Below are positions 15,560 to 58,282 of a stretch of 64,000 nucleotides of DNA, piece by piece. Where the stretch lies: assembly GCF_015767245.1 (NCBI RefSeq), contig NZ_JADOTV010000003.1, positions 62,001-126,000 of the forward strand, written 5' to 3'. The position numbers and the translations under genes were made by a program. The notes beneath the pieces are model-generated. The model did no database searches, had not been told where the DNA came from, and saw only the letters and a program-made list of their open reading frames with translations. This DNA comes from Aureivirga sp. CE67 (lineage in GTDB: Bacteria; Bacteroidota; Bacteroidia; Flavobacteriales; Flavobacteriaceae). Position 1 is the stretch's first letter, and every line of letters starts with the position of its first letter.

Positions 15560-17401
15560 TTATTGTTTTAGGAATTTATGAAACGTATATTTTTTATTTT
15601 CTTCAAATATTTTTATAATGTAAACTCCTTTTGTCAAATCTGAAACATTGATAGAATTCGAGTTAGATTTTTGTACTATTAATTTACCCGATAAATCTTG
15701 TATTTGAATAGTGTTTACTTCTGAGATATTTTCAATAAATAATGTGTTTTTTATTGGATTTGGATAAATAAAAAGATTTGATTTATCCTCTACTGAAATA
15801 TTTAAATCTGAACAAAAATATTCAGCATTGAAATCTTTAAAATTATTAACAATAATTATGTCATTTTCAATTTCGTTTTCATATAAATCTGTTACAATAT
15901 TACAACTGACAAATACATCTTCTAAAACAGAATTGTTTATGAATAATAGAGAAGAATTTATTACAAGATTATCTAGATAAACCGACTTTAAATTGTCGTT
16001 ATTTTGAATTTGAATATCATGAGAAAATTCATCACTTAATGTATTATAACTACCAATTGTTATTAACAAACTTTGCAAGTTTAGACTTGAAAGATTCGTA
16101 TTATTTATATTTAAATTGATTACACTTTTTAAAATTGGAAGATTCAGAATTTCTAAAGCACTTCCATTTATATACATGGGAACATAAACAGAATTTAGAA
16201 TAGGAAAAGAAATTTCTTCAAGTGCATTATTTTCAGATATATTAAAAGAATAATTAATTGAAATAGGAAAATCAAAATTTGTATCAATCTTATATAAATT
16301 TGGAAAAACGATACTTTGTAAATTTTCATTATTAATACATTTAAATCTACCCATTTTTTCAATATCTAAATTTAGATTAAGTGTTTCTAAAAAGATATTA
16401 TTTGTAAAATAAAAACCTGAATTTATAAGAGTTAAATTACTTAGGTTTAATGTCTCAATTTTTAAATTATGAAATTGCAAATAATTTATTGTAGATACTA
16501 AAGGCATTGAAATATTAACATTATTTGCAGTAGGTTCATTAATATTAATATTCCCTACATTATTTAAATTTGGGAATTCTAAATTAAGATTTGTAACATT
16601 ATTATTTTCTAAACTTAAACTTTCAATACTTTGTAATCCTTCAAAATTAATATCATAGTCTAACTTCGGATTATTTGTTATATTAATTTCTTGTAAAGTT
16701 GATAAGTGAGAAATAGTTGGAATGGTTTCAAGATTGGGATTATTTAATATATTTACATTATTAATATTTTGTAAATCATTATCTGCATCAAAATCATTAG
16801 GCGTTGTTATTTCTTTTAATTTTGAATTATTTGAAACTTTTAATTGAATAAATTCATCTAAGCCTTCAACATCAATTAAAACAGGATTATCTTTTATAGT
16901 TATATTTCCAGAAAAAGCTTCTTCTAAAAAAATTATAGTCTCAAGAGAATTATTATTAGAAAATTCAGATTGGTAATTAGTAAGTCCATTAAATACAATA
17001 TTCTTTAATGAATCATTATTCTTTATTTCAAGACGTTCATTTAACGAATATCCGTTAGAATTATCAATAAATAATACAATATTTTGTAATGCATCATTAT
17101 CTAATATTTCTACACCGCTTGCTTTGTAAATATTACCAATATTTATCAAAGAGTTATTGTTTTCTAATTTAAAAGTACCTTGTATATCTTGTAAATTCGG
17201 TAGTTCTTCTAAAGATATTATATCTGTATTTTTTATAATTAAATCTCCATTTATTTCTGTACAATTAGGGTAATTAGAAATAAAATCATTTAATTCATTT
17301 TGAGATGAAATAATTACGTCTCCTGCAGGACATTGAGAATAGAAAGAAACTGAAAATAGAACAAAAATCAGTTTCATCGTATTTCTAAAATACTTTTTCA
17401 T
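15560..17401 (-). CDS. Secreted L-domain/LRR-like T9SS protein (cluster member 1)
   Basis: 613 residues. The signal peptide ends FYSQ, followed by CPAGDVIISSQNELNDF and YPNCTEINGDLII, the head shared by all five cluster members. The body is a run of irregular leucine-rich beta-solenoid repeats with regular Asn/Asp turns (NN.L..I), resembling receptor L-domains rather than classical bacterial LRRs. A type A T9SS tail is present (IYPNPIKN ... GVYIIKIFEENK). It is predicted at the cell surface in binding or adhesion; the ligand is unknown. Of the cluster members it is the most divergent at both ends and lacks the family terminator immediately downstream. The start is fixed by the signal peptide. 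Confidence 0.85.
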   Translation of the reverse strand: MKKYFRNTMKLIFVLFSVSFYSQCPAGDVIISSQNELNDFISNYPNCTEINGDLIIKNTDIISLEELPNLQDIQGTFKLENNNSLINIGNIYKASGVEILDNDALQNIVLFIDNSNGYSLNERLEIKNNDSLKNIVFNGLTNYQSEFSNNNSLETIIFLEEAFSGNITIKDNPVLIDVEGLDEFIQLKVSNNSKLKEITTPNDFDADNDLQNINNVNILNNPNLETIPTISHLSTLQEINITNNPKLDYDINFEGLQSIESLSLENNNVTNLNLEFPNLNNVGNININEPTANNVNISMPLVSTINYLQFHNLKIETLNLSNLTLINSGFYFTNNIFLETLNLNLDIEKMGRFKCINNENLQSIVFPNLYKIDTNFDFPISINYSFNISENNALEEISFPILNSVYVPMYINGSALEILNLPILKSVINLNINNTNLSSLNLQSLLITIGSYNTLSDEFSHDIQIQNNDNLKSVYLDNLVINSSLLFINNSVLEDVFVSCNIVTDLYENEIENDIIIVNNFKDFNAEYFCSDLNISVEDKSNLFIYPNPIKNTLFIENISEVNTIQIQDLSGKLIVQKSNSNSINVSDLTKGVYIIKIFEENKKYTFHKFLKQ

Positions 17402-17508
17402 ATTAATATTTTTTTATTTTATGCGAATATATGATTTTAACATAAATTAAAAAACTAATATTTGATTACAATTTAATATGATAATAAAATATCATTTTAT
17501 AAAAATAA

Positions 17509-17537
17509 AAAAGCGATTAACTATGTTAATCGCTTTT
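17509..17537 (-). terminator. Cluster-type terminator after L-domain gene 2
   Basis: A 13-bp perfect stem (17509-17521 with 17525-17537), loop of three, built on AAAGCGATTAAC/GTTAATCGCTTT. Almost the same stem follows three other members of the cluster. Confidence 0.8.
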
Positions 17538-17557
17538 AATAAACCTTTTAATATTTA

Positions 17558-19177
17558 TTATTCTTTTACAAACTTCTCTGTTATTATATTATTTCTAGAA
17601 TCAAAAATCTTTATAAAATAAATTCCATTTTCTAAATTTTGAACATTTATTTGATCAGTATTAAATTTTTGAATAATTTTCTTACCGGTAATATCGAATA
17701 TTTCAATTTTAGAAATATTTAAATTAGAAACAACTGTAATCTCTTTAGATGCAGGATTAGGTAGAATAGAAAATTCAATTAATTCTTCTTCATCTACATT
17801 TATAATAATATCAAGACATATTGAATCTATAGAACAATTCTCTCCATTATTTTCTATAAAAATATCATTATTATAGTAATTATGATACAATTCAGATATT
17901 TTATCACAATCAATAGAACATAAATCTAAATTAGGATTATCAATAATCTCAATTAAAGTTAATTCATCTGAATTTGGAATATTTATACTTCCTAATAGAT
18001 CATTTTCAATAATTTTTAATTCATATAAATTATCTGTATTGCTAATATTTAAATTCTCAAGAACTTCGGTATTTTCGATAGTTAATTTGTTTAAACTTCC
18101 TGAATTTTCAATTGTTAAGTTTTCAATACTTACATTATTTTGTATAGAAATTTCTTTTAAAGAAGAACTATTTAAATTTTCAAACATAAAATTTCCAGAA
18201 ATATATAAATTTTCCAAATCTGAAATATTTTCTATTTCGTTGAAATTACTTACTTGACCATGATAATTATATATTTTTAATGTTTTACAATTTTGTATCA
18301 TTGGAAAAACAGGTTCAAAGTAAAAAAAATCTTGTTTAGCAATTCTGATGTTAATTTCTTCACTTGTTGTTAATTTTGAAAAAGTATTATTTAAACCTAT
18401 AACATTATCATTTTTAAAGTATAAGAATAAATTATCTACTATTTCTAAATTTGAAAAAGAAATATTTGTCAGATCTTCATTAAAGTGAGTATAAGTATCA
18501 TATATACTCAAATCACTATTATCTATTCTTAAACTTCCTATAGTTATTATAGAATCAAAAATTAAATTTATTAAAGTTGGATTTCCTTCAGGAAAAAGTT
18601 CTCCAGAAATTGTTGTTAAACTATCAAATCCTGTGGTGTCATAAAGCTCTTCGTTAAAAGAGAAATGAAAATCCCCACCTATAGATTCTAGCATATCAAA
18701 TCCTTCAAAATTTAAAATTGAATCATTATTTTCTATAATTAAATTCCCTCCAATAGAAGTTAAAAGATTCAACCCTTCAAATGAAATTAAATAATTATTA
18801 TTTTCGACTGTAACATCTCCAGAAACAGTTGTGATATTTAAACCTTCTAAATTCGTTAAACTTATATTTTTAATAACAAGTTCTCCAACAGTCTGAATAT
18901 TCAAATCATTGAAATTTTCAATATTAAATAAATTTTGAATATTTAGAGAGTTTGCAACAGAGGTGATATTTTCTAATCCGCTTAAATTTTCTGCATCAAA
19001 ACTGATAATATTCAAATCACCTGAGATTTCAGTACAATTAGGATAATCAATGATAAATTGATCTATATCTTCTTGAGAATTTAAGGTAACATCTCCATCA
19101 GGACATTGAGCAAAAGAGTTAAAACTAAAAATAGAAATAAGAGCAATAAGCAATTTTTTTGGAGTATTTTTTTTCAT
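17558..19177 (-). CDS. Secreted L-domain/LRR-like T9SS protein (cluster member 2)
   Basis: 539 residues: signal peptide ending NSFAQ, head CPDGDVTLNSQEDIDQF, repeats such as LLTSIGGNLIIENNDSILNF, and a type A sorting tail (ILPNPASKE ... GIYFIKIFDS). The first ~52 residues differ from those of member 3 at only one position. The last ~50 residues are nearly the same as those of member 4. The middle is different from both. It is predicted to be exported by T9SS to the surface. Function is unknown; protein or glycan recognition is an inference from the L-domain-like fold. Confidence 0.85.
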   Translation of the reverse strand: MKKNTPKKLLIALISIFSFNSFAQCPDGDVTLNSQEDIDQFIIDYPNCTEISGDLNIISFDAENLSGLENITSVANSLNIQNLFNIENFNDLNIQTVGELVIKNISLTNLEGLNITTVSGDVTVENNNYLISFEGLNLLTSIGGNLIIENNDSILNFEGFDMLESIGGDFHFSFNEELYDTTGFDSLTTISGELFPEGNPTLINLIFDSIITIGSLRIDNSDLSIYDTYTHFNEDLTNISFSNLEIVDNLFLYFKNDNVIGLNNTFSKLTTSEEINIRIAKQDFFYFEPVFPMIQNCKTLKIYNYHGQVSNFNEIENISDLENLYISGNFMFENLNSSSLKEISIQNNVSIENLTIENSGSLNKLTIENTEVLENLNISNTDNLYELKIIENDLLGSINIPNSDELTLIEIIDNPNLDLCSIDCDKISELYHNYYNNDIFIENNGENCSIDSICLDIIINVDEEELIEFSILPNPASKEITVVSNLNISKIEIFDITGKKIIQKFNTDQINVQNLENGIYFIKIFDSRNNIITEKFVKE

Positions 19178-19288
19178 AAAATTAATTTTTAATTGTTTTT
19201 TTTTAAATATACAAATATTCAGTTAAATTTATATCATATTTTTAAATTCCCAGTAGTTCTACATAATTTACTAAATTATATAAGTAAA

Positions 19289-19318
19289 AAAGCGATTAAC
19301 AACATTGTTAATCGCTTT
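19289..19318 (-). terminator. Cluster-type terminator after L-domain gene 3
   Basis: A 14-bp perfect stem (19289-19302 with 19305-19318) with a two-base loop; the same AAAGCGATTAAC core as the other cluster terminators, with two extra base pairs at the loop end. Confidence 0.8.
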
Positions 19319-19339
19319 AAATAAATCTGTTAATATTTA

Positions 19340-21580
19340 TTATTCTTTAATAAACTTCTCTGTCATTGTATTGTTTTTAGAGTCTGAAATATTCAAAAAA
19401 TACACACCTTTTTCAAGTGATATAATATTAATATTTTGAGTTTCTTTAGTTTTCAAAACCGTTCTTCCAGTTAGATCAACAATACTAATTTGAGAAATAT
19501 CTAGATCTGTATTAATCCTAATTTTGTTTTTTGCAGGGTTTGGTAAAATTGAAAATTCATGTATTACTTCTTCTTCAATATTAATTATCTCTGGACAATA
19601 TTCTTCAATATCAAATATATATTCACCATTTTCTATTATAACAATACTTAAAGCCTCTCCATTCCAATATAAGCTTGATAAAACCTCACATGGTATTTCT
19701 AAGCTCTGTAATTCTGAATTATTTTTGATTTCTAATCTAGTTACATTAATAGTTAAAGCATTTAATTTTATATCTTCAATTTTAGTGTTATTAATTACTA
19801 GTCCAAATTCTGAATACCATATATCAAAATCATGTGGTACTTCATTCACCTCTTCTAAAGCATCTAAATCTAGTGTTGTCAACGATTCCTCACCATTAAT
19901 ATTAATACCAACAGACTTTTTTAATGACTCAAAATTAACTTCCTCAATCTCTTCATTACCTGATATTTGCATAAAATCTTTAAATTCTAATATAGAAGAA
20001 AAATTGATTTTCTTTAATCCTGAATTGTTTTCTATTCTATTACTATCAAATAAATAATCATCTACATTTGTTAACTCATTAAGATTTTGGAAATTAATTT
20101 CTTCTAGATTTTCATTACCTATGAATTTTACATTTCCAATAAAATTAAGATTTGGAAGATTTAAAACTGAATTATCAATAAAATTATTTTCACTTATTTC
20201 AAAGAACAACTCAACTTCTTCTAGATTGGGAATATTAATAGATGCTATAGAATTTTGATCAAATAATAAATATGTAATTTTTTTTAAATCAGGTAAATCT
20301 AAATTCATTCCATTACCATTATCAATAATATCTAGTTCACTTTCAATTCCATTTTCAAAATTTAAAATAGTTAAATTCTCTAATAAAGGATTATGACTAA
20401 TTCTAATAGTATTCGAAGTTATTTTATCAAATCCTCCAATTGTAAAAATCTTTAAGGAACTATTGTTATAAACTTCAGGACCTGGACTACCTCCATAATA
20501 ATGATCATTATTTGTCAATTCTACATCTGAAATAGTACTGCTGTTTGAAGCAATATTTATAGTTTCTAATGCATTATTATCTCTAATATTAATTCCGTGA
20601 AGTTCTGTCACATTACTTAAACCTATTTCGTTTAATAATGCATTACCAGCAATTGTAATACCTCCTTGTAAATCAGTAATAGATTCTGAATTAATAGAAA
20701 CTAACTCATTATTATCATTAATAATTAGATTTCCATTTATAGCATTTAAATTAGTGAAATTTATAGACTGAACAGAAGCATTATCCGTAATTTCAATAGC
20801 TCCTATTTCAGAGCCAATAATTTCGGAAAAATCAATTGTATCAATTTCAGGATTATTGATTATTTTAATTTGACTATTAATTTTATTAATTAAATTTAGT
20901 TCATAAAGGTTAGTATTGTTTGTAATGATTAATTCATCAATAATCAAATTATCATTAGTAATACTTAATGAGGTCATCGACTCATTTGCATCGATTTCAA
21001 ATTTTTGTATGGAAATACCAGTATCAAAAATCATACTACTTAAATTATCATTATTTCTAATCGTAATATTTCCATCAAAGTTTTGCAAAGATTGAATAGA
21101 ACCAGCATGGTGTAATAAAGAATTCCCCTCAATTAATATATCACCTTCAATTGATATAATATTTTGAAGTACTTCTAAATCTAATATGTGATCATTATCT
21201 TTAATTATTAAATCACCATTAATTTCTGTAAACGGTATAAATATATCTTCAAGGGCATTATTTTTAATTTCTAACCCACCAATAGAAGTGAAATTTAACC
21301 CATCGAAATTTTCAAAAAGTGAATTATTTAAAATGATTAATTTCCCTGTAACAGTAGAAATATTATTTAGACCATTAAAATTTAAAATCTCAGAATTAGA
21401 ATCTGAAATAATTTTCAATTCACCAGAAATCTCTGTACAATTAGGATAATCAATGATAAATTGATCTATATCTTCTTGAGAATTTAAGGTAACATCCCCA
21501 TCAGGACATTGAGCAAAAGAGTTAAAACTAAAAATAGAAAAAAGAGCAATAAGCAATTTTTTTGGAGTATTTTTTTTCAT
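19340..21580 (-). CDS. Secreted L-domain/LRR-like T9SS protein (cluster member 3)
   Basis: 746 residues, the longest of the cluster. The signal peptide and head are almost identical to those of member 2 (over 159 bp, 21437-21595, I count two base differences). A long series of beta-solenoid repeats follows (for example ITDLQGGITIAGNALLNEI), then the T9SS tail ILPNPAKNK ... GVYFLNISDSKN. The length difference to the other members comes from the number of repeats in the middle. Predicted surface protein of unknown ligand. It has its own terminator downstream, so it is probably transcribed alone. Confidence 0.85.
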   Translation of the reverse strand: MKKNTPKKLLIALFSIFSFNSFAQCPDGDVTLNSQEDIDQFIIDYPNCTEISGELKIISDSNSEILNFNGLNNISTVTGKLIILNNSLFENFDGLNFTSIGGLEIKNNALEDIFIPFTEINGDLIIKDNDHILDLEVLQNIISIEGDILIEGNSLLHHAGSIQSLQNFDGNITIRNNDNLSSMIFDTGISIQKFEIDANESMTSLSITNDNLIIDELIITNNTNLYELNLINKINSQIKIINNPEIDTIDFSEIIGSEIGAIEITDNASVQSINFTNLNAINGNLIINDNNELVSINSESITDLQGGITIAGNALLNEIGLSNVTELHGINIRDNNALETINIASNSSTISDVELTNNDHYYGGSPGPEVYNNSSLKIFTIGGFDKITSNTIRISHNPLLENLTILNFENGIESELDIIDNGNGMNLDLPDLKKITYLLFDQNSIASINIPNLEEVELFFEISENNFIDNSVLNLPNLNFIGNVKFIGNENLEEINFQNLNELTNVDDYLFDSNRIENNSGLKKINFSSILEFKDFMQISGNEEIEEVNFESLKKSVGININGEESLTTLDLDALEEVNEVPHDFDIWYSEFGLVINNTKIEDIKLNALTINVTRLEIKNNSELQSLEIPCEVLSSLYWNGEALSIVIIENGEYIFDIEEYCPEIINIEEEVIHEFSILPNPAKNKIRINTDLDISQISIVDLTGRTVLKTKETQNINIISLEKGVYFLNISDSKNNTMTEKFIKE

Positions 21581-21684
21581 AAAATTAATTTTTAAAATAT
21601 TTTTTTATAAATATAAATCATATTTAGTTAAAAAAACACTATAAACACAATTATATTCAATATTAAGTATTTTTACGTAATAAA

Positions 21685-21711
21685 AAAGCGATTAACTATG
21701 TTAATCGCTTT
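21685..21711 (-). terminator. Cluster-type terminator after L-domain gene 4
   Basis: A 12-bp perfect stem (21685-21696 with 21700-21711), loop of three; same stem and loop sequence as the terminator after member 2. Confidence 0.8.
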
Positions 21712-21726
21712 AGATAAATTAATTTA

Positions 21727-22911
21727 TTATTCTTTAATAAACTTCTCTGTTATTATATTATTTCTAGAATTAAAAATCTTTATAAAATAAATTCCATTTT
21801 CTAAATTTTGAACATTTATTTGATCAGTATTATATTTTTGAATAATTTTCTTACCGGTAATATCGAATATTTCGATTTTAGAAATTTGTTTCTCAGTCTG
21901 AATTGAAATCGTATTCTTTGCTGGATTTGGTTTAATAGAAAACTGTAACTTACTTTCTTCATTTACATCTAAAATCTCAGGACATATTTCAATCACACTA
22001 CTACACCCTTCTTTATTCTCATAAAAATAAAGGTCTGTATCAATAGAATTCCAATAAAGACCAGATAATAAAGGACAATAGAAATCACATTCACTCAACT
22101 GATTATTAGATATAACATTAATTAACTTTGCATCATTCAAATTTGAAAGATTCAAATCTACAACATCATTATTATTAATAAATTCAAACTTATTCACAGA
22201 TTCAAGTATTGAAAAATTAGAATGATAGTGGTGATTATTATCCTTAATATAGATATTATTAGCAGACACTAGTTTTGGGAAAATAATTTGATCATATTCA
22301 GAATTATTATCCATTATAAAATTATTGTCTTCAATATTCACATCGTTTACACTTATCAAATCTGGAAATGATGTAGCTATAAGTTGTATATTATTTTTAA
22401 AAACAACACTACCCGTAACCATCTCTAAATCAAAAAAATCAAAACTAAATTCATATTCGGAAGAATTATTTTCTATAAAAATATTATTTATTGTATTTGG
22501 CCCACTCAATGAAATAATTTCTAATGTATCATTATTTTTAATTACTATTTCATTTATATTGACTATTTCAAATATCTCGATTGTGACTAGACCATCATTA
22601 TTATCAAGTATTATTTTATCTACACTAGTTAATGCATCTAAGAAAAATTCATCTCTATTTGTATTTTTCAGTATTAAATCTCCATTTATTGAAGTAATCT
22701 GATTAAAATGGTTAAAATAATCATATGCATTATCCCCATCAATTATTAAATCTCCATTTATTTCAGTACAATCGGGATAAATAGAATTAAAGTTTGCTGT
22801 TTCTTCTGCTGTAGTTAAAATTACATCTCCTTCTGGACATTGAGCAAAAGTAAATTTAGAAAATAAAATTACACTTGCTAATAGCAATAGTTTTTTTGAA
22901 AAAAATTTCAT
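21727..22911 (-). CDS. Secreted L-domain/LRR-like T9SS protein (cluster member 4)
   Basis: 394 residues, the shortest complete member. The signal peptide ends FTFAQ and the head is CPEGDVILTTAEETANF, divergent from members 2 and 3. The repeats are fewer. The tail (IKPNPAKNT ... GIYFIKIFNSRN) is almost identical to that of member 2, also at the DNA level. Predicted to be exported through T9SS. The different pairing of shared heads and shared tails among the cluster members is discussed as a finding. Confidence 0.85.
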   Translation of the reverse strand: MKFFSKKLLLLASVILFSKFTFAQCPEGDVILTTAEETANFNSIYPDCTEINGDLIIDGDNAYDYFNHFNQITSINGDLILKNTNRDEFFLDALTSVDKIILDNNDGLVTIEIFEIVNINEIVIKNNDTLEIISLSGPNTINNIFIENNSSEYEFSFDFFDLEMVTGSVVFKNNIQLIATSFPDLISVNDVNIEDNNFIMDNNSEYDQIIFPKLVSANNIYIKDNNHHYHSNFSILESVNKFEFINNNDVVDLNLSNLNDAKLINVISNNQLSECDFYCPLLSGLYWNSIDTDLYFYENKEGCSSVIEICPEILDVNEESKLQFSIKPNPAKNTISIQTEKQISKIEIFDITGKKIIQKYNTDQINVQNLENGIYFIKIFNSRNNIITEKFIKE

Positions 22912-22980
22912 ATTTGTTTTTTTAAATTTTCAAGACAAATATAATATTTTAACATTATTACTAAATTATTTAAAATTAAA

Positions 22981-23007
22981 AAAGCGATTAATAATATTAA
23001 TCGCTTT
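22981..23007 (-). terminator. Cluster-type terminator after L-domain gene 5
   Basis: A 12-bp perfect stem (22981-22992 with 22996-23007) built on AAAGCGATTAAT; a variant of the stem found after members 2, 3 and 4. Confidence 0.78.
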
Positions 23008-23028
23008 AGAATAATTAATTTTCTATTA

Positions 23029-24471
23029 CTATCCTTTAATAAATTTATCTGTTAATATATTATTATTAGTATCAAAAACCTTAATTATATAAATACCATT
23101 CTTTAAGTTTTCGATTTTTATACTTTTCGATTTTAATTTCTCCAAAACTTGTTTACCAGTTATTTCCAAAACTTGAATTTTAGAAATATCATTTTTTGAT
23201 TGAATTGAAATATAATCTTTTACTGGATTTGGAAATAATATAATTAAATTTTCAATATTTTCTTCTTCAATTCCAATTTGTGGGCATAAATCCGAAATAT
23301 CATTTAAAAAACTACTGTTATTCTGAAAATATAAATCATCTTCAATAGTATTTGTATTTAACGCTTCAAAAATTGAACAATCAATCGTACAATTAGTCAA
23401 CGAAGGATTTTCTTCGATTCTAATACTTTCGACTGAATTTAGATTTGAAAATAAAATATCTTCCAATTTATTATTGTCTTTAATATGTAAATCTAAAGGA
23501 ATATAACCTGGATAATCTCCTGTGATTTCAGCTAAATTCCCAAATTCAATTTTTTCTAAATTTAAATTTCCTTCTACTTTAATTGGACCTATTTCAGTAA
23601 CATTATTAAAAGTTATATTTTTCAATTCATTATTATTTTCAATAACAGTTCTGTGAATTGAGTTTAAGTTTTGTGTTTTTATTTCAACTAAATTCAAATT
23701 TTCTTCAATAGTTAAAATATAAGTTGAGGTAATTGAATTTAAATCTAGACTCAACATAGATTCATTTGAGATAAAATCAAAGTCTTCAACAGTTTCTAAA
23801 GAACTAATATTAAGTAAAATTAAAGAATCATTTTTATGTACAGTAAAATCATCAGCTGTGGTCAAACTCGGAAAATTCACAGCATTAAGTTCATCATTTT
23901 GATAAATTTGAATATTATTTGTAGAATTTTCTAGGCTTAAAAAGGTTAGAGATTCTAAATTATCATTATTTCCAATTAATAAATTATAAACTGTAGAAAG
24001 ATCAAATAAATTTAAAGTATTCAGAGAAGCATTTCCATAAATATCAATTTCATTTGCAGACTCTAGACCAGTAGCATTTATTTTTTCAAGATTTGGATTT
24101 AACCTAATAAAAAGATCATTTAAATTTTCGGAGTTTAATGAAATTTCGGTCAATTGCGCATTATTCGTAATTTTCAAAAATCCTGAAACTGTTTCTAAAT
24201 TAGATAATTCATCTAAAACTGTAATGGAAGTGTTGGAAATGAAAAGGTTTCCTCCAATTGATGTGATATTTTGAAGTGGTTCTAAGGTCGTGATATCCTC
24301 GCCCGAAATTGTTAAGTTCCCTGATAGTTCCGTACATTCAGCATAATTTGTAGAAAAAGAATTAATCTCAGCTTGACTAGACAAATTTATATTAGGATCA
24401 TCACATTGACTAAAAGAATAAATTGGAATCGAAAGTAAGATTAGCGCTTTTTTAAAATAATTTTTTTACAT
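23029..24471 (-). pseudogene. L-domain/LRR-like T9SS protein (cluster member 5) with stop codon right after ATG
   Basis: The coding frame continues upstream of the first conventional non-ATG start (TTG at 24384) through a normal signal peptide (KNYFKKALILLSIPIYSFSQC) to codon 2. The only well-placed ATG (24469-24471) is followed at once by TAA, where the paralogues have AAA. The rest of the frame (480 codons) is intact, with L-domain-like repeats and a T9SS tail (LFPNPVKDY ... GIYIIKVFDTNN). Initiation at the TTG would give a cytosolic protein without signal peptide, so it is either a recently silenced gene, uses a rare start codon, or reflects a base error in an A-rich run. The lack of further damage suggests a recent or apparent lesion. 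Confidence 0.65.
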
Positions 24472-31019: not shown

Positions 31020-31793
31020 ATGAAGAAAATTTTACTTTTATTAGTAACCTCTGTTGCTCTATTCTCTTGTAGTATGAAAGAGCGAATTGTATTCAATGAA
31101 GACATGACAGGAAAATATGAAATGTCCATTGATTTAACACCAATGCTAGAATTTGCTAATTCTATGGGAGGTGGTAGTAAAAATGACGCTAAGAAAAAAA
31201 ATCTAACTTATGATACTATTGCTCACTTCGATGATTTCATTGAGCTTTATAAAGACAGTTTAGATTCCCCAGAGAAACAAAGATTAAGTAAGCTTAAAGG
31301 TTTAACAATGCAATCTAAGTTTAATGAAGAAAGCGGAGAAGCTTTTATAAAAGTCTACAAGGATTTTGACAGCATGGACGATTTGAATTTAATGCATCAA
31401 AATTTTAACTATGCAATGGACAAATCAAAACAAAACTCGGGTATTGATGGAATTGAAAAAAAATCAAAAGGAACGCCGAAAGTAAATGATAATGTTGAAT
31501 ATTCTTATAAAAGAAGAACTTTTAAAAGGACTTCTAAAGCTTTACCAAAAAATGAAGAATCTAATGAAGATGATTTAAATAAAGAAGATAATGATAGATT
31601 CAAGAAAATGATAAAAATGCTTGGAAAAACAATGGATTATGAAATTGAATATGTTTTTCCTAGAAAAATTAAAAAAGTTTCTACAGATAAAGCTATGATT
31701 TCTGAAGATGGAAAAACACTAAGAATCAATTATGATTTACAAGTTGTTTTAGATAAACCTGAAACGATGTCTTTTGAGGTTAAATTGAAATAA
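31020..31793 (+). CDS. Hypothetical lipoprotein
   Basis: 257 residues. The signal sequence ends in a lipobox (VALFSCS, Cys at about 17), so the mature protein should be lipid-anchored. No known domain was recognised. The mature part starts with MKERIVFNEDMTGKYEMSIDL, a beta-rich beginning common to uncharacterised flavobacterial lipoproteins, then a charged Lys/Asp/Glu-rich middle (about 150-195) and a final beta-stretch. It is followed by a terminator, so it is probably transcribed alone. Confidence 0.8.
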   Translation: MKKILLLLVTSVALFSCSMKERIVFNEDMTGKYEMSIDLTPMLEFANSMGGGSKNDAKKKNLTYDTIAHFDDFIELYKDSLDSPEKQRLSKLKGLTMQSKFNEESGEAFIKVYKDFDSMDDLNLMHQNFNYAMDKSKQNSGIDGIEKKSKGTPKVNDNVEYSYKRRTFKRTSKALPKNEESNEDDLNKEDNDRFKKMIKMLGKTMDYEIEYVFPRKIKKVSTDKAMISEDGKTLRINYDLQVVLDKPETMSFEVKLK

Positions 31794-31816
31794 TTTTAAT
31801 TAAAACTTATAGTGAT

Positions 31817-31845
31817 AAACGAGATTTAGAAAATAAATCTCGTTT
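31817..31845 (+). terminator. Terminator after the lipoprotein gene
   Basis: A perfect 12-bp stem (31817-31828 with 31834-31845), five-base loop and a run of Ts. Confidence 0.8.
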
Positions 31846-31860
31846 TTTTATTTCAAAACC

Positions 31861-31885
31861 TGCATCATTTTTCTACACCTTCGTC
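31861..31885 (+). promoter_or_regulatory. Candidate ECF-type promoter of the Cys-rich gene
   Basis: TGCATC (31861-31866) and CGTC (31882-31885) are spaced by 15 bases. CGTC is a common -10 element of extracytoplasmic-function sigma factors, and no TAnnTTTG element is seen at this place. The start would be about 30 bases before the ATG at 31919. This would fit autoregulation by the SigZ-like factor encoded downstream, but it is an inference from the element alone. Confidence 0.35.
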
Positions 31886-31918
31886 TTTATAAGTGAAAAC
31901 AATTAAATATTAGAACTT

Positions 31919-32098
31919 ATGAAAGATTTAAATAAATTCAGAAACGCAGAATTAAATTCAAATACTAACTGTTGTACTTGTCCACCTGATTGTTGTACTT
32001 GTTGTTCAGCAGATTGTTGTTCAGATGAAAAGTACAATGCATGTTGTGATAACGGAACGGATGATTGTTGTAATAGCGAAAACAAAACTTGCTGTTAA
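31919..32098 (+). CDS. Cysteine-rich miniprotein (metallothionein-like)
   Basis: 59 residues with 15 cysteines, all in the last 42 residues and mostly as CC pairs: CCTC, CC, CC, CC, CC, CC and CC, with the pattern CCTCPPDCCTCCSADCC in the middle and CC at the very end. There are no aromatic residues in that part except one Tyr. No signal peptide is visible, so it should be cytosolic. Such density and spacing suggest binding of several soft metal ions, like a metallothionein; this is inference, and no family was recognised. It lies upstream of a sigma factor with its own Cys motifs, separated by a hairpin. A longer frame on the opposite strand at the same place (31903-32085) is Gln/Ser-rich and looks like a shadow. 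Confidence 0.75.
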   Translation: MKDLNKFRNAELNSNTNCCTCPPDCCTCCSADCCSDEKYNACCDNGTDDCCNSENKTCC

Positions 32099-32107
32099 TT
32101 AAAATCT

Positions 32108-32142
32108 AAAAGTTTGTGAGGATTCGCTCTTCACAAACTTTT
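32108..32142 (+). terminator. Hairpin (attenuator or terminator) between the Cys-rich gene and the sigma gene
   Basis: A perfect 12-bp inverted repeat (32108-32119 with 32131-32142) followed by TTATTATTT. If only partly effective it would give much short Cys-rich mRNA and little sigma mRNA from one promoter. Confidence 0.65.
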
Positions 32143-32164
32143 ATTATTTAATTTTATTGAAAGA

Positions 32165-32704
32165 ATGAATTTGATTATGAATAAAGAAATTGATGAAATA
32201 TACGCTCCTCTCCTATCTTTTGTAAAAAAAAGAATTAATAATCGAGAGGATGCTGAAGATATTACCCAGGAGGTATTTTATAAATTTTCTAAAGCAGCCT
32301 TTGATGAAAAATCGAACTTTAAAAGTCTACTATATCGAATAGCAAAAAATTCGATTATTGATTATTATAGAAAAAAGAAGATTTATACAGAAGAGATTAC
32401 AGATTTTAAATTTTCGGAAGATGAAAAATCACCTAGAATCACAAATGATATTTGTACTTGTATTTTTAAATTTATTGACAAACTTCCAAAAGAATATCAA
32501 GATGTTATAGAAATGTCGGAAATTCAAGATTTCTCGCAGAAAGATATTGCAGAAAATCTCGAGATGAATTATACTACAGTTCGATCTAAAATTCAAAGAG
32601 GAAGAAAAAAATTACAAAATCTTATTTCTGATTGTTGTGATATTATTCAAAATGAAAAAGGTAGAATTGTAGATCATAAATGCTCAAATAAAAATTGTGA
32701 TTAA
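32165..32704 (+). CDS. SigZ/CorE-like ECF sigma factor with Cys motifs
   Basis: 179 residues (or 175 from the second ATG at 32177). Region 2 is at ~10-75 (EDITQEVFYKFSKAAF, LYRIAKNSIIDYYRK) and region 4 at ~105-155 (PKEYQDVIEMSEIQDFSQKDIA ... TTVRSKIQRGRKKL). The linker carries a CxC (C97, C99), and the C-terminus has CC (C157-C158), C173 and C178. The tail matches SigZ. The CxC linker plus Cys-rich tail also resembles CorE-type sigma factors, which in Myxococcus respond directly to copper. No anti-sigma gene is adjacent. A metal- or metalloid-sensing role that switches on the Cys-rich gene is the best inference. Confidence 0.8.
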   Translation: MNLIMNKEIDEIYAPLLSFVKKRINNREDAEDITQEVFYKFSKAAFDEKSNFKSLLYRIAKNSIIDYYRKKKIYTEEITDFKFSEDEKSPRITNDICTCIFKFIDKLPKEYQDVIEMSEIQDFSQKDIAENLEMNYTTVRSKIQRGRKKLQNLISDCCDIIQNEKGRIVDHKCSNKNCD

Positions 32705-32747
32705 ATTTTCGCTACACTTTTTGTAGTTATTTCAGTTTAAGCCAAAA

Positions 32748-32772
32748 AAACACGATTTAAATAATCGTGTTT
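32748..32772. terminator. Terminator between converging genes
   Basis: A 10-bp stem (AAACACGATT at 32748-32757 with its complement at 32763-32772), shortly after the sigma gene and before the end of the opposing membrane protein gene. Confidence 0.65.
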
Positions 32773-32793
32773 CAAATTTTGTCTTCGAAGATT

Positions 32794-56344: not shown

Positions 56345-58282
56345 TTATTTATATTCAAATCTTAATAATCTTAAAGCATTAAAAACTACTAAAACAGTAG
56401 ATCCTTCATGGATGATTACTGTCCAACCTATCCCTGTGATTCCAAAAGCTGCAAGTGGAATAAGTGTAAGAATTACAAGTAAACTTATAATTAGATTTTG
56501 AATGATAATTCCTTTTGCTTTTTTGCTTAAAGAAAGTAAAAAAGGTAGTTTTTCAATTTTATCTGAAAGTAAAGCTACTTCAGCTGTTTCAAGAGCAATT
56601 TCTGACCCAGCAGCTCCCATTGCAACCCCAATATGACTTGCAGCCATTGCTGGAGCGTCATTTACACCATCGCCAATCATTGCTACAGTTTTCCTTTTTT
56701 TAATTAATTCATTTATTTCAAGTAGTTTTTCAGAAGGTAAAAGATTTCCTTTTACACTTTCTATAGAAATTTGTTTAGCAACTTCAGCTCCTACAATTTG
56801 AGAATCTCCCGTAAGCATTGTAATATATTTGATACCAAGTTTTCTTAGGTTTAAAATTGTTTCTTTTGACTTATCTCTTGGTAAATCTTTAAAAGCAATC
56901 AAACCAATACATTCATTATCGTATTTTAAGAAGGAAACTGTTTTCCCTTCAGAATTAAGTTCAAATATTAATTCTTTTAATGCCTGAGTTTTATTTTCTA
57001 AAATATTCTCTTTTCCAAAAATAATTTCTTTTTCATCCCAAATAGCTTTTAAACCAATACCTTTTAATTGTTCAGGATTTTTAAAATCATAAATAGCAGG
57101 TTCTATTTTTTGTTTTGAAACTTCATTAAAAATCGCTTTACCTAAAGGATGTTTACTTATTTTTTCTAATTGATTGGCTAAAAATAAAACTTCTAATTCT
57201 TCAAAACCATTAAAAGCATAAACATCTGTTACTTTCGGTTTTCCATAAGTCAGAGTTCCGGTTTTATCAAATGCAATTGAATTTACTTTAGCTAGAATTT
57301 CAATTGCTCTACCTCCTTTAATTAAAACTTTATTTTGTGCTGCACGAGCAATAGCGCTAAGAACTGCACTTGGAGTAGAAATAGCCAAAGCACAAGGACT
57401 AGAAGCGATTAAAACAGAAATTGCTCTATAAATACTATCTTTTGGAGTTTCGTTAGTAATTAAAAAAGCGAAACATAAAAGAACAACAAAAATTAAAATA
57501 ATTGGAACAAAATACTTCTCTACTTTTTTAGAAAATATTTGGGCTTTCGATTTTTTAGCATTTGCTTCTTTTACCAAATAAATCATTTTTTGAAGAACAG
57601 TGTCTTTATATTCTTTTAAAACTTTAATTTCTAAAACTTGATCTTCATTAATAGTTCCACCAAAAACCTTATAAGTTGAATCTAAAGCGTCAAAAGGTTT
57701 ATTTTCATGAATATTTGGGTAAGCTTTTTTAGGAACAGGAATACTTTCTCCGGTAATAGCAGCCTGATTCACCATACTTTCCCCAGAGATGACCACACCA
57801 TCAATAGGAATTTTATCATCAGGATTTACAATAATTACATCTTCAATTTTTAATTTATTTACCTCAATTTCCTTCGTACCATTATTAGTTTTTAATAAAG
57901 CTTTTTTGGGAAGCAAATCTCCAAGCTTAGAAATAGTGTGTTTTGCTTTATGAATGGCATAATGTTCTAAAGCATGACCTAAACTAAATAACAACAGTAA
58001 AAAACCACCTTCTAACCAATCTCCAAGAAAAGCAGCTCCGATTGCTGCAACAATCATTAGAAAATCAATTTCAAACTTTCCTTTAATGATTTTGATAAAT
58101 GATTCTTTCAAAATAAAAAAAGAACCAAAAAAATACGTGAGGATATTTAAATATAATGTTTGCTTAAAATGAAAATTTTCGCCTAAAAAAGCTAATAATA
58201 AAAAAAGGGTTGTTAAATAAACAAATAAGATTTCTATGTTATTTGTAAGTATGTATTTTTTTCTTTTTTGAAGAGTTTTCAT
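56345..58282 (-). CDS. P1B-4-type heavy-metal-transporting ATPase
   Basis: 645 residues. TGES (about 186-189), the transmembrane metal site SPC near 294, phosphorylation motif DKTGTLT (about 339), an HP dipeptide (HPLGKA) and GDGVNDAPAMA. The N-terminus has no HMA metal-binding domain, and the last membrane helices contain HEGST (about 622). SPC together with HEGxT and no HMA domain define the P1B-4 group, whose members export Fe2+, Co2+ or Zn2+ and related ions. It should pump a divalent metal out through the inner membrane. It stands alone; no metal regulator lies next to it. Confidence 0.88.
   Translation of the reverse strand: MKTLQKRKKYILTNNIEILFVYLTTLFLLLAFLGENFHFKQTLYLNILTYFFGSFFILKESFIKIIKGKFEIDFLMIVAAIGAAFLGDWLEGGFLLLLFSLGHALEHYAIHKAKHTISKLGDLLPKKALLKTNNGTKEIEVNKLKIEDVIIVNPDDKIPIDGVVISGESMVNQAAITGESIPVPKKAYPNIHENKPFDALDSTYKVFGGTINEDQVLEIKVLKEYKDTVLQKMIYLVKEANAKKSKAQIFSKKVEKYFVPIILIFVVLLCFAFLITNETPKDSIYRAISVLIASSPCALAISTPSAVLSAIARAAQNKVLIKGGRAIEILAKVNSIAFDKTGTLTYGKPKVTDVYAFNGFEELEVLFLANQLEKISKHPLGKAIFNEVSKQKIEPAIYDFKNPEQLKGIGLKAIWDEKEIIFGKENILENKTQALKELIFELNSEGKTVSFLKYDNECIGLIAFKDLPRDKSKETILNLRKLGIKYITMLTGDSQIVGAEVAKQISIESVKGNLLPSEKLLEINELIKKRKTVAMIGDGVNDAPAMAASHIGVAMGAAGSEIALETAEVALLSDKIEKLPFLLSLSKKAKGIIIQNLIISLLVILTLIPLAAFGITGIGWTVIIHEGSTVLVVFNALRLLRFEYK

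Follow-up and report, generated by a model that had tools for sequence, protein, structure and literature searches.

What does a miniprotein with a quarter of its residues cysteine do directly ahead of a sigma-factor gene, and do the two form one functional unit? The question is raised by a locus of Aureivirga sp. CE67, a member of the Flavobacteriaceae with a genome of 4.81 Mb, whose nearest relatives found here, Aureivirga marina and a further genome (G033), are both placed in the same genus. In the window, the 64,000-nucleotide stretch that was analysed, the plus strand carries a compact unit consisting of a promoter-like element, a 59-residue cysteine-rich frame, a hairpin and the gene of a SigZ-like ECF sigma factor. 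The candidate ECF-type promoter, TGCATCATTTTTCTACACCTTCGTCT (31861–31886, +), joins a -35-like TGCATC (31861–31866) to a -10-like CGTC (31882–31885) across a spacer of 15; these letters, like those and the coordinates of the miniprotein (31919–32098, +), agree with the first-pass annotation, which had described a protein of 59 residues with 15 Cys, mostly as CC pairs. There are seven such pairs and one single Cys. A hairpin of 16 pairs with a T-rich tail after it (32107–32143, +) separates the miniprotein from the sigma frame (32165–32704, +). The unit is flanked on both sides by terminator-like hairpins. One of them, followed by a T tract (31817–31845, +), lies 3' of the upstream gene at 31020–31793 (z -4.7 for 31810–31860) and would isolate the miniprotein/sigma unit from that gene; the other (32747–32773) lies between the sigma gene and a convergent gene and was scored as terminator-like on both strands in a scan. 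In A. marina (L009), gene order, promoter, miniprotein and hairpin arms are all kept; between the two genomes the promoter elements and the hairpin arms are conserved, and most of the spacer and the hairpin loop has changed.

The cysteine-rich frame is the sole frame of 20–100 residues in the window with at least six Cys and at least 12% Cys, and frames of at least 30 residues with at least ten Cys and at least 20% Cys were absent from 40 Markov-resampled windows, indicating that it did not arise by chance. Its A. marina counterpart has 58 residues and 14 Cys. The alignment spans 58 codons, of which 32 are the same in both species, 12 carry silent differences and 14 encode a different amino acid, with 9, 9 and 19 changes at codon positions 1, 2 and 3, respectively. 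The amino-acid changes are concentrated in the N-terminal part; the final 32 codons, which align without gaps, give a dN of 0.052 and a dS of 0.824. Judged by this comparison, the frame is under purifying selection and very probably a gene, and it is this selection that suggests its translation. No Pfam or NCBIfam family matched the protein at E<=1, described metallothionein families included, and a PDB search returned one weak match (E 0.32) that we take as chance. With 15 Cys in 59 residues and purifying selection acting on it, the miniprotein has a make-up of the metallothionein type, known here from sequence; in this sense it is metallothionein-like, outside any described family.

The first-pass annotation had coupled the miniprotein to the sigma factor, and a search of the neighbourhoods of related sigma genes, where a lack of conserved Cys-rich frames would have spoken against it, bears this out. 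A first search with the sigma protein gave matches in 13 of 397 genomes of the family at E<=1e-25, with other Cys-rich frames already beside the gene. A profile built from these 13 sigma relatives found 112 places in 102 of the 397 family genomes; a sample of 296 genomes taken from the phylum added another 29 (both at E<=1e-36, places counted by hand). For each of the resulting 141 SigZ-like loci of Bacteroidota, we inspected the sigma gene together with about 5 kb of flanking sequence in both directions, or as much of it as the contig contained; A. marina is represented by L009. A miniprotein was counted if it lay on the same strand within 300 bp of the sigma gene, had 20–80 residues and contained at least eight Cys amounting to at least 17%. 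Such a frame is present at 79 of the 141 loci, the window's own included, upstream of the sigma gene in 74 and downstream in 5, compared to three qualifying frames elsewhere in the 1.29 Mb around the loci and none equally close on the opposite strand at any of the 141. Three further cases stand outside the 79: at L269 and L274 the mechanical extension of the sigma frame runs into a Cys-rich frame, and at L082 a 26-residue peptide ending in GCCGGGGCC, below the count threshold, lies between the promoter and the sigma gene and is followed by an inverted repeat (by eye). The loci are related by descent, so that their counts are not independent, and since the kinds of miniprotein do not constitute one alignable family, the recurrence is one of Cys content, position and strand. 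Counts of pairing, promoter and cysteine conservation cover all 141 loci; neighbour clusters, tree and hairpin counts cover an earlier set of 122 of these places (69 with a miniprotein), the other 19 being low-ranking profile matches. In the open-licence literature (PubMed Central) we found no description of a pairing between a SigZ-like sigma factor and a Cys-rich miniprotein.

Among plasmid records with a SigZ-like match, 13 of 17 were examined, and the two Priestia plasmid genes among those examined have no Cys-rich frame within 300 bp. Actinobacterial records have CC-paired peptides as well. In Nonomuraea (L256, 2356–2460), one of 34 residues with 8 Cys precedes the sigma match by about 40 bp. 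Four Rhodococcus loci carry, convergent and downstream of the sigma gene, a CC-paired peptide of 58 residues with 7 or 8 Cys (L251, 3194–3370; L257, 3200–3376; L259, 3195–3371; L260, 3194–3370).

The pairs share more than their arrangement. The element that recurs upstream of them is TGCATCTTTTT-N-CGTCT, with variants; in a relaxed form it occurs within 450 bp upstream of the sigma gene at 61 of the 74 upstream pairs and at 9 of the 62 loci without a counted miniprotein (53 of which lack it), compared to 0 of 141 loci for the reversed control. The remaining 13 upstream pairs do not have the promoter as written. Across the 397 family genomes, a pattern that excludes the Aureivirga variant, TGCATCTTTT-N10-12-CGTCT, has 41 sites in 37 genomes, while its reversed control has 10 matches. 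Thirty-one of these sites lie 186–386 bp upstream of a SigZ-like match, one just downstream and nine elsewhere; of the ten off-operon sites seven were read, placing five within genes, one between genes (L227) and one just downstream of the sigma gene (L220). The Aureivirga sp. CE67 genome contains the strict form, TGCATCNTTT-N9-13-CGTCT, once, at this operon, and its reversed control not at all. The promoter was found at none of 7 examined among 20 other ECF matches in the same genome; one of these seven (L006) has, at a distance of about 650 bp, a 50-residue frame with 6 Cys. We also looked for a wider regulon in this genome and rejected it: a looser pattern gave 4 matches against 2 for the reversed control, no clear excess, and allowing up to two mismatches at fixed spacing gave 11 against 14. 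At L084 and L087, the same promoter shape precedes the sigma gene and appears again just after it, ahead of ArsM, and at L081 it stands before a gene for a CC-tailed flavoprotein, before an operon of CCG peptide, MFS transporter and sigma factor, and before a small Cys-bearing protein. This recurrence before the pairs, before ArsM and before the L081 genes provides the strongest, albeit indirect, support for recognition of the shared promoter shape by the SigZ-like sigma factor. The autoregulated transcript that the annotation had postulated likewise gains support from the comparison, with one promoter shape before most pairs.

SigZ (TIGR02959, NF007215) is an ECF sigma factor of unknown function from Bacillus subtilis. 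It is the best family match of the Aureivirga protein, which scores 149.5 of 168.65 bits for TIGR02959 and 156.3 of 212 bits for NF007215 and by these scores is a SigZ relative below both curated cut-offs; of six relatives scanned, L084 (169.1) and L188 (174.7) pass TIGR02959 and none passes NF007215. The protein probably starts at 32177 (MNKEI..., 175 residues), since the four codons before this position are not conserved in A. marina. Its PDB matches, by sequence and by fold, are ordinary ECF sigma factors, and its predicted structure shows ECF-type helices with a long last helix (136–157) that ends at C157 and is followed by a short beta hairpin. This model was computed from an alignment of 69 rows, in which the Aureivirga protein is joined by 68 selected among the other 121 sigma factors, leaving out the PhzF-linked and several other rows; its confidence is moderate in the tail, with one block mean good and the other lower, and the overall pTM is rather low.

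All six sigma cysteines listed in the first-pass annotation (C97, C99, C157, C158, C173 and C178) are present, but the conserved set is C99, C157, C158 and C178. The linker CxC to which the annotation had pointed is there by letter (C97-T-C99); C97, however, is Cys in only 2 of 141 sigma factors, both from Aureivirga, leaving C99 as the conserved linker Cys. Within the 122-locus set, C99 (codon 32459–32461, +) is Cys in 99 sigma factors and in all 69 with a miniprotein; C157 and C158 (32633–32638, +), the CC pair ending the last helix of region 4, are Cys in 118 and 100, and C178 in the tail (32696–32698, +) in 105. The complete quartet is found at 78 of the 79 miniprotein loci, the exception being L279, which its contig cuts short, compared to 12 of the 62 others. 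These 12 include L269, L274 and L082, so that besides L269 and L274 ten loci have the quartet and no counted miniprotein. C158 and C178 have both been lost from all 16 sigma factors encoded beside PhzF genes, none of which is paired with a counted miniprotein (L091, L122-L124, L126, L127, L131, L134, L136, L139, L140, L144, L146, L149, L158, L174), and 8 of 9 ArsI-linked and 4 of 8 ArsM-linked sigma factors lack C99 only. Plasmid-encoded SigZ-like proteins of Priestia, Rhodococcus and Vibrio likewise have C99 and the CC pair; C178 is present in those of Rhodococcus and Vibrio and absent from the aligned Priestia SigZ, and the Arenibacter plasmid protein is without C99.

The miniproteins themselves are of several kinds. 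The commonest kind, of about 33 residues with 11 Cys (49 of 122 loci), has its Cys regularly spaced as CxC and CxxC and is conserved at residues other than Cys as well (by eye). Other kinds have 37 residues with 14 Cys (8 of 122), 36–41 residues (2) or, downstream of the sigma gene, 26–27 residues (3); five are single ones, and the CC-paired Aureivirga kind is found at 2 of the 122 loci. These kinds do not look alignable with each other. Of nine related peptides scanned, eight matched no family in either Pfam or NCBIfam at E<=1, the ninth, a 51-residue CCG peptide, having weak unrelated matches only, and a PDB search with one 33-residue relative gave no match. In a maximum-likelihood tree of the 122 sigma factors with midpoint root, each larger miniprotein kind falls on one side of a branch. 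The 33-, 37- and 36–41-residue kinds group together (60 rows, one without a miniprotein; support 100/97), and Aureivirga lies elsewhere, grouped with L081-L083, L085, L086 and L165 (support 100/97).

The reading that we prefer, and consider fairly likely, is that of a self-contained metal or metalloid stress unit, in which an autoregulated SigZ-like sigma factor senses a thiophilic ion and produces more of a thiol buffer peptide than of itself. It starts from the conserved pairing, the coding-type selection, the shared promoter shape, the hairpin and the co-conserved sigma cysteines, as computed here, and infers from them that the miniprotein is translated in the cell and binds metal, which ion is sensed, which way the switch works and that read-through is partial. 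C99 in the linker, C157 and C158 at the end of region 4 and C178 in the tail would form a soft-metal site on the sigma factor, which would become active once a thiophilic ion is bound, be it As(III) or a different soft ion (Cd, Hg, Zn, Cu and Ag are examples). It would then direct RNA polymerase to TGCATC-N15/16-CGTC ahead of its own operon, yielding in quantity the Cys-rich miniprotein, a putative metal or metalloid thiol buffer, while the hairpin would let only a fraction of transcription read on into the sigma gene. By binding the ion, the miniprotein would protect the cell and take the signal away from the sigma factor, closing the loop.

Genes near the related loci suggest which ion this might be. 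Directly beside the pair in the window there is no metal gene, and by eye we recognised no ars-type genes among the adjoining frames. Within 4.5 kb of the 122 related sigma genes, however, ArsM is found at 8 loci, ArsI/CadI at 9 and PhzF at 16, none of these 33 having a counted miniprotein. The names are taken from NCBIfam, whose cut-off is exceeded by each of the five ArsM members scanned and by three of four ArsI members, the fourth narrowly missing it (112.5 of 116). At L081, ArsO scores above its cut-off and is accompanied by an MFS transporter and by proteins that are CC-rich or end in a CC tail. Considering that a near relative stands with ArsO and that other relatives appear to drive ArsM, arsenite or another soft ion would be at least as likely a signal as copper. 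From the neighbour genes, we would assign about one half of the probability to arsenite or antimonite, and most of the rest to other soft ions.

Near this group of sigma genes, at L081 (2763 to 1935 bp upstream of the sigma gene), L165 and L183, there is repeatedly a flavoprotein whose C terminus is a tail of CC pairs; it is weakly like ArsO, and the L081 copy has no NCBIfam family over cut-off and one short weak match in the Aureivirga sp. CE67 genome. The same genome encodes an ArsM-like methyltransferase below the cut-off that ends in HYDGGGCC (G000:C15; L245, 1249–2217), and a second SigZ-like sigma factor (G000:C1:702361-702882; L196) whose neighbours likewise favour arsenite or a soft metal: an ArsP_1 permease and an HMA protein, both over cut-off, and a MerT-like protein that falls below its own. 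A heavy-metal P-type ATPase of the cadmium family is encoded in the window at 56345–58282 (-), about 24 kb from the pair, with TIGR01525 and TIGR01512 over cut-off. Also in the window (15560–24384, -) lie five neighbouring genes for long, apparently secreted repeat proteins whose C-terminal ends look alike by eye.

The neighbourhoods also bear on a different kind of signal, namely thiol or electrophile stress, such as disulfide formation or depletion of bacillithiol, which would act through reversible disulfides among the sigma cysteines, with the miniprotein as a thiol reserve. Indeed, a gene for a YpdA-type putative bacillithiol disulfide reductase lies within 4.5 kb at 12 of the 122 loci, each of the 33-residue kind, within an otherwise mixed cluster of 19 loci with flavoprotein neighbours. 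These 12 loci, however, fall within one clade and their neighbourhood looks like inherited gene order, while the ArsM, ArsI/CadI and ArsO neighbours point to ions and the CxC/CxxC spacing is metallothionein-like; we therefore regard this explanation as unlikely.

The first-pass annotation had itself favoured copper, by likeness to CorE. Passages of PMC8999054 describe CorE and CorE2 of Myxococcus xanthus (formerly ECF44, now ECF238) as sigma factors that are regulated by their own C-terminal extension and respond directly to metal, and as dependent on cysteines in the sigma2-sigma4 linker and the tail, both features being essential. The Aureivirga protein resembles them in being an ECF sigma factor with cysteines at both places, as far as its sequence tells, and it has the linker CxC by letter; it would work like CorE, whose group is activated directly by copper, or by Cd and Zn, if the sigma factor itself senses the ion. 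Yet this CxC is private to the Aureivirga genus within the SigZ-like group studied here, and the tail spacing, given for CorE and CorE2 in a section of PMC9023288 as C-X4-C-X2-C-X-C or CC-X3-C-X2-C-X-C, is CC-X14-C-X4-C in Aureivirga, which argues against membership. As targets of CorE, part of PMC10141476 names a multicopper oxidase and a copper ATPase; beside the pair we recognised no copper gene, and the nearest sigma relatives include loci of the arsenic type. Copper is thus not favoured as the ion, and a CorE-type copper sensor proper, paired with a miniprotein that buffers copper, is decidedly unlikely.

The hairpin between the two genes raises a further alternative. Its stretch in Aureivirga folds at -19.3 kcal/mol (z -5.9), with 0 of 200 shuffles as good, in line with the annotation's claim of a hairpin following the miniprotein, and a hairpin with z below -2 occupies this position at 53 of 57 loci tested (of the 64 upstream pairs in the 122-locus set, gaps under about 25 nt having been left out), its sequence varying widely. 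At most loci tested, a run of Cys codons directly precedes a terminator-like hairpin and a regulatory gene, as would be expected if the frame were a leader peptide of a cysteine attenuator, on which ribosomes slow when cysteine or charged tRNA-Cys is short, so that the hairpin opens and the sigma gene is transcribed. Against this, the 5' arm of the hairpin has no alternative upstream partner beyond that seen in shuffles (51 loci; mean z +0.57, 1 below -2), which makes a partial terminator setting the product ratio likelier than a leader-peptide switch. Moreover, the 33-residue kind has its regular spacing and conserved non-Cys residues, 5 of the 79 miniproteins lie downstream of the sigma gene, and several neighbour genes of related loci are metal(loid) genes. 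A cysteine attenuator is accordingly very unlikely. In place of the attenuator proposed by the annotation, the hairpin would favour the miniprotein over the sigma factor, presumably as a partial terminator with partial read-through. Ordinary co-location, with the sigma factor regulating something else and the Cys-rich frames being incidental, is extremely improbable given 79 adjacent frames, all on the sigma strand, against 3 elsewhere in 1.29 Mb, a shared promoter before most pairs and a single strict promoter in the Aureivirga sp. CE67 genome.

Bacterial metallothioneins, which hold metal ions in thiolate clusters, include SmtA, BmtA, PmtA, NmtA and MymT. The Aureivirga miniprotein is likewise small and Cys-rich, and by analogy we propose that it may buffer metal. 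A difference would lie in its control: two papers name AzuR, of the SmtB/ArsR family, as the regulator of NmtA (PMC8790569) and RicR as that of MymT (PMC10141476), and the regulators they describe are of the repressor type, whereas here a neighbouring sigma factor would take this role. An on-board Cys sensor in the tail of an ECF sigma factor also has a counterpart in OrbS of Burkholderia cenocepacia, which, however, is inhibited by Fe(II) and controls a siderophore, as stated in part of PMC9023288.

Whether the stress unit of Aureivirga exemplifies a general principle is a more far-reaching matter, to which we give about an even chance. The SigZ-like group would then sense metals or metalloids without requiring an anti-sigma factor and, in Bacteroidota and at least some Actinomycetota, would form minimal circuits, often with a single target, in which non-homologous thiol miniproteins replace one another rapidly. 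These miniproteins would amount to a large unannotated metallothionein-like class under the control of a sigma factor rather than a repressor. If true, this would provide an orphan sigma-factor family with a testable function and reveal a set of unannotated Cys-rich miniproteins spread across one phylum. The circuit itself would be minimal, comprising a sensor sigma factor, one promoter, one effector and one hairpin, with an exchangeable effector, be it another thiol peptide or an arsenic enzyme, and a constant promoter and sensor; as such, it may also offer a design for metal reporters in Bacteroidota.
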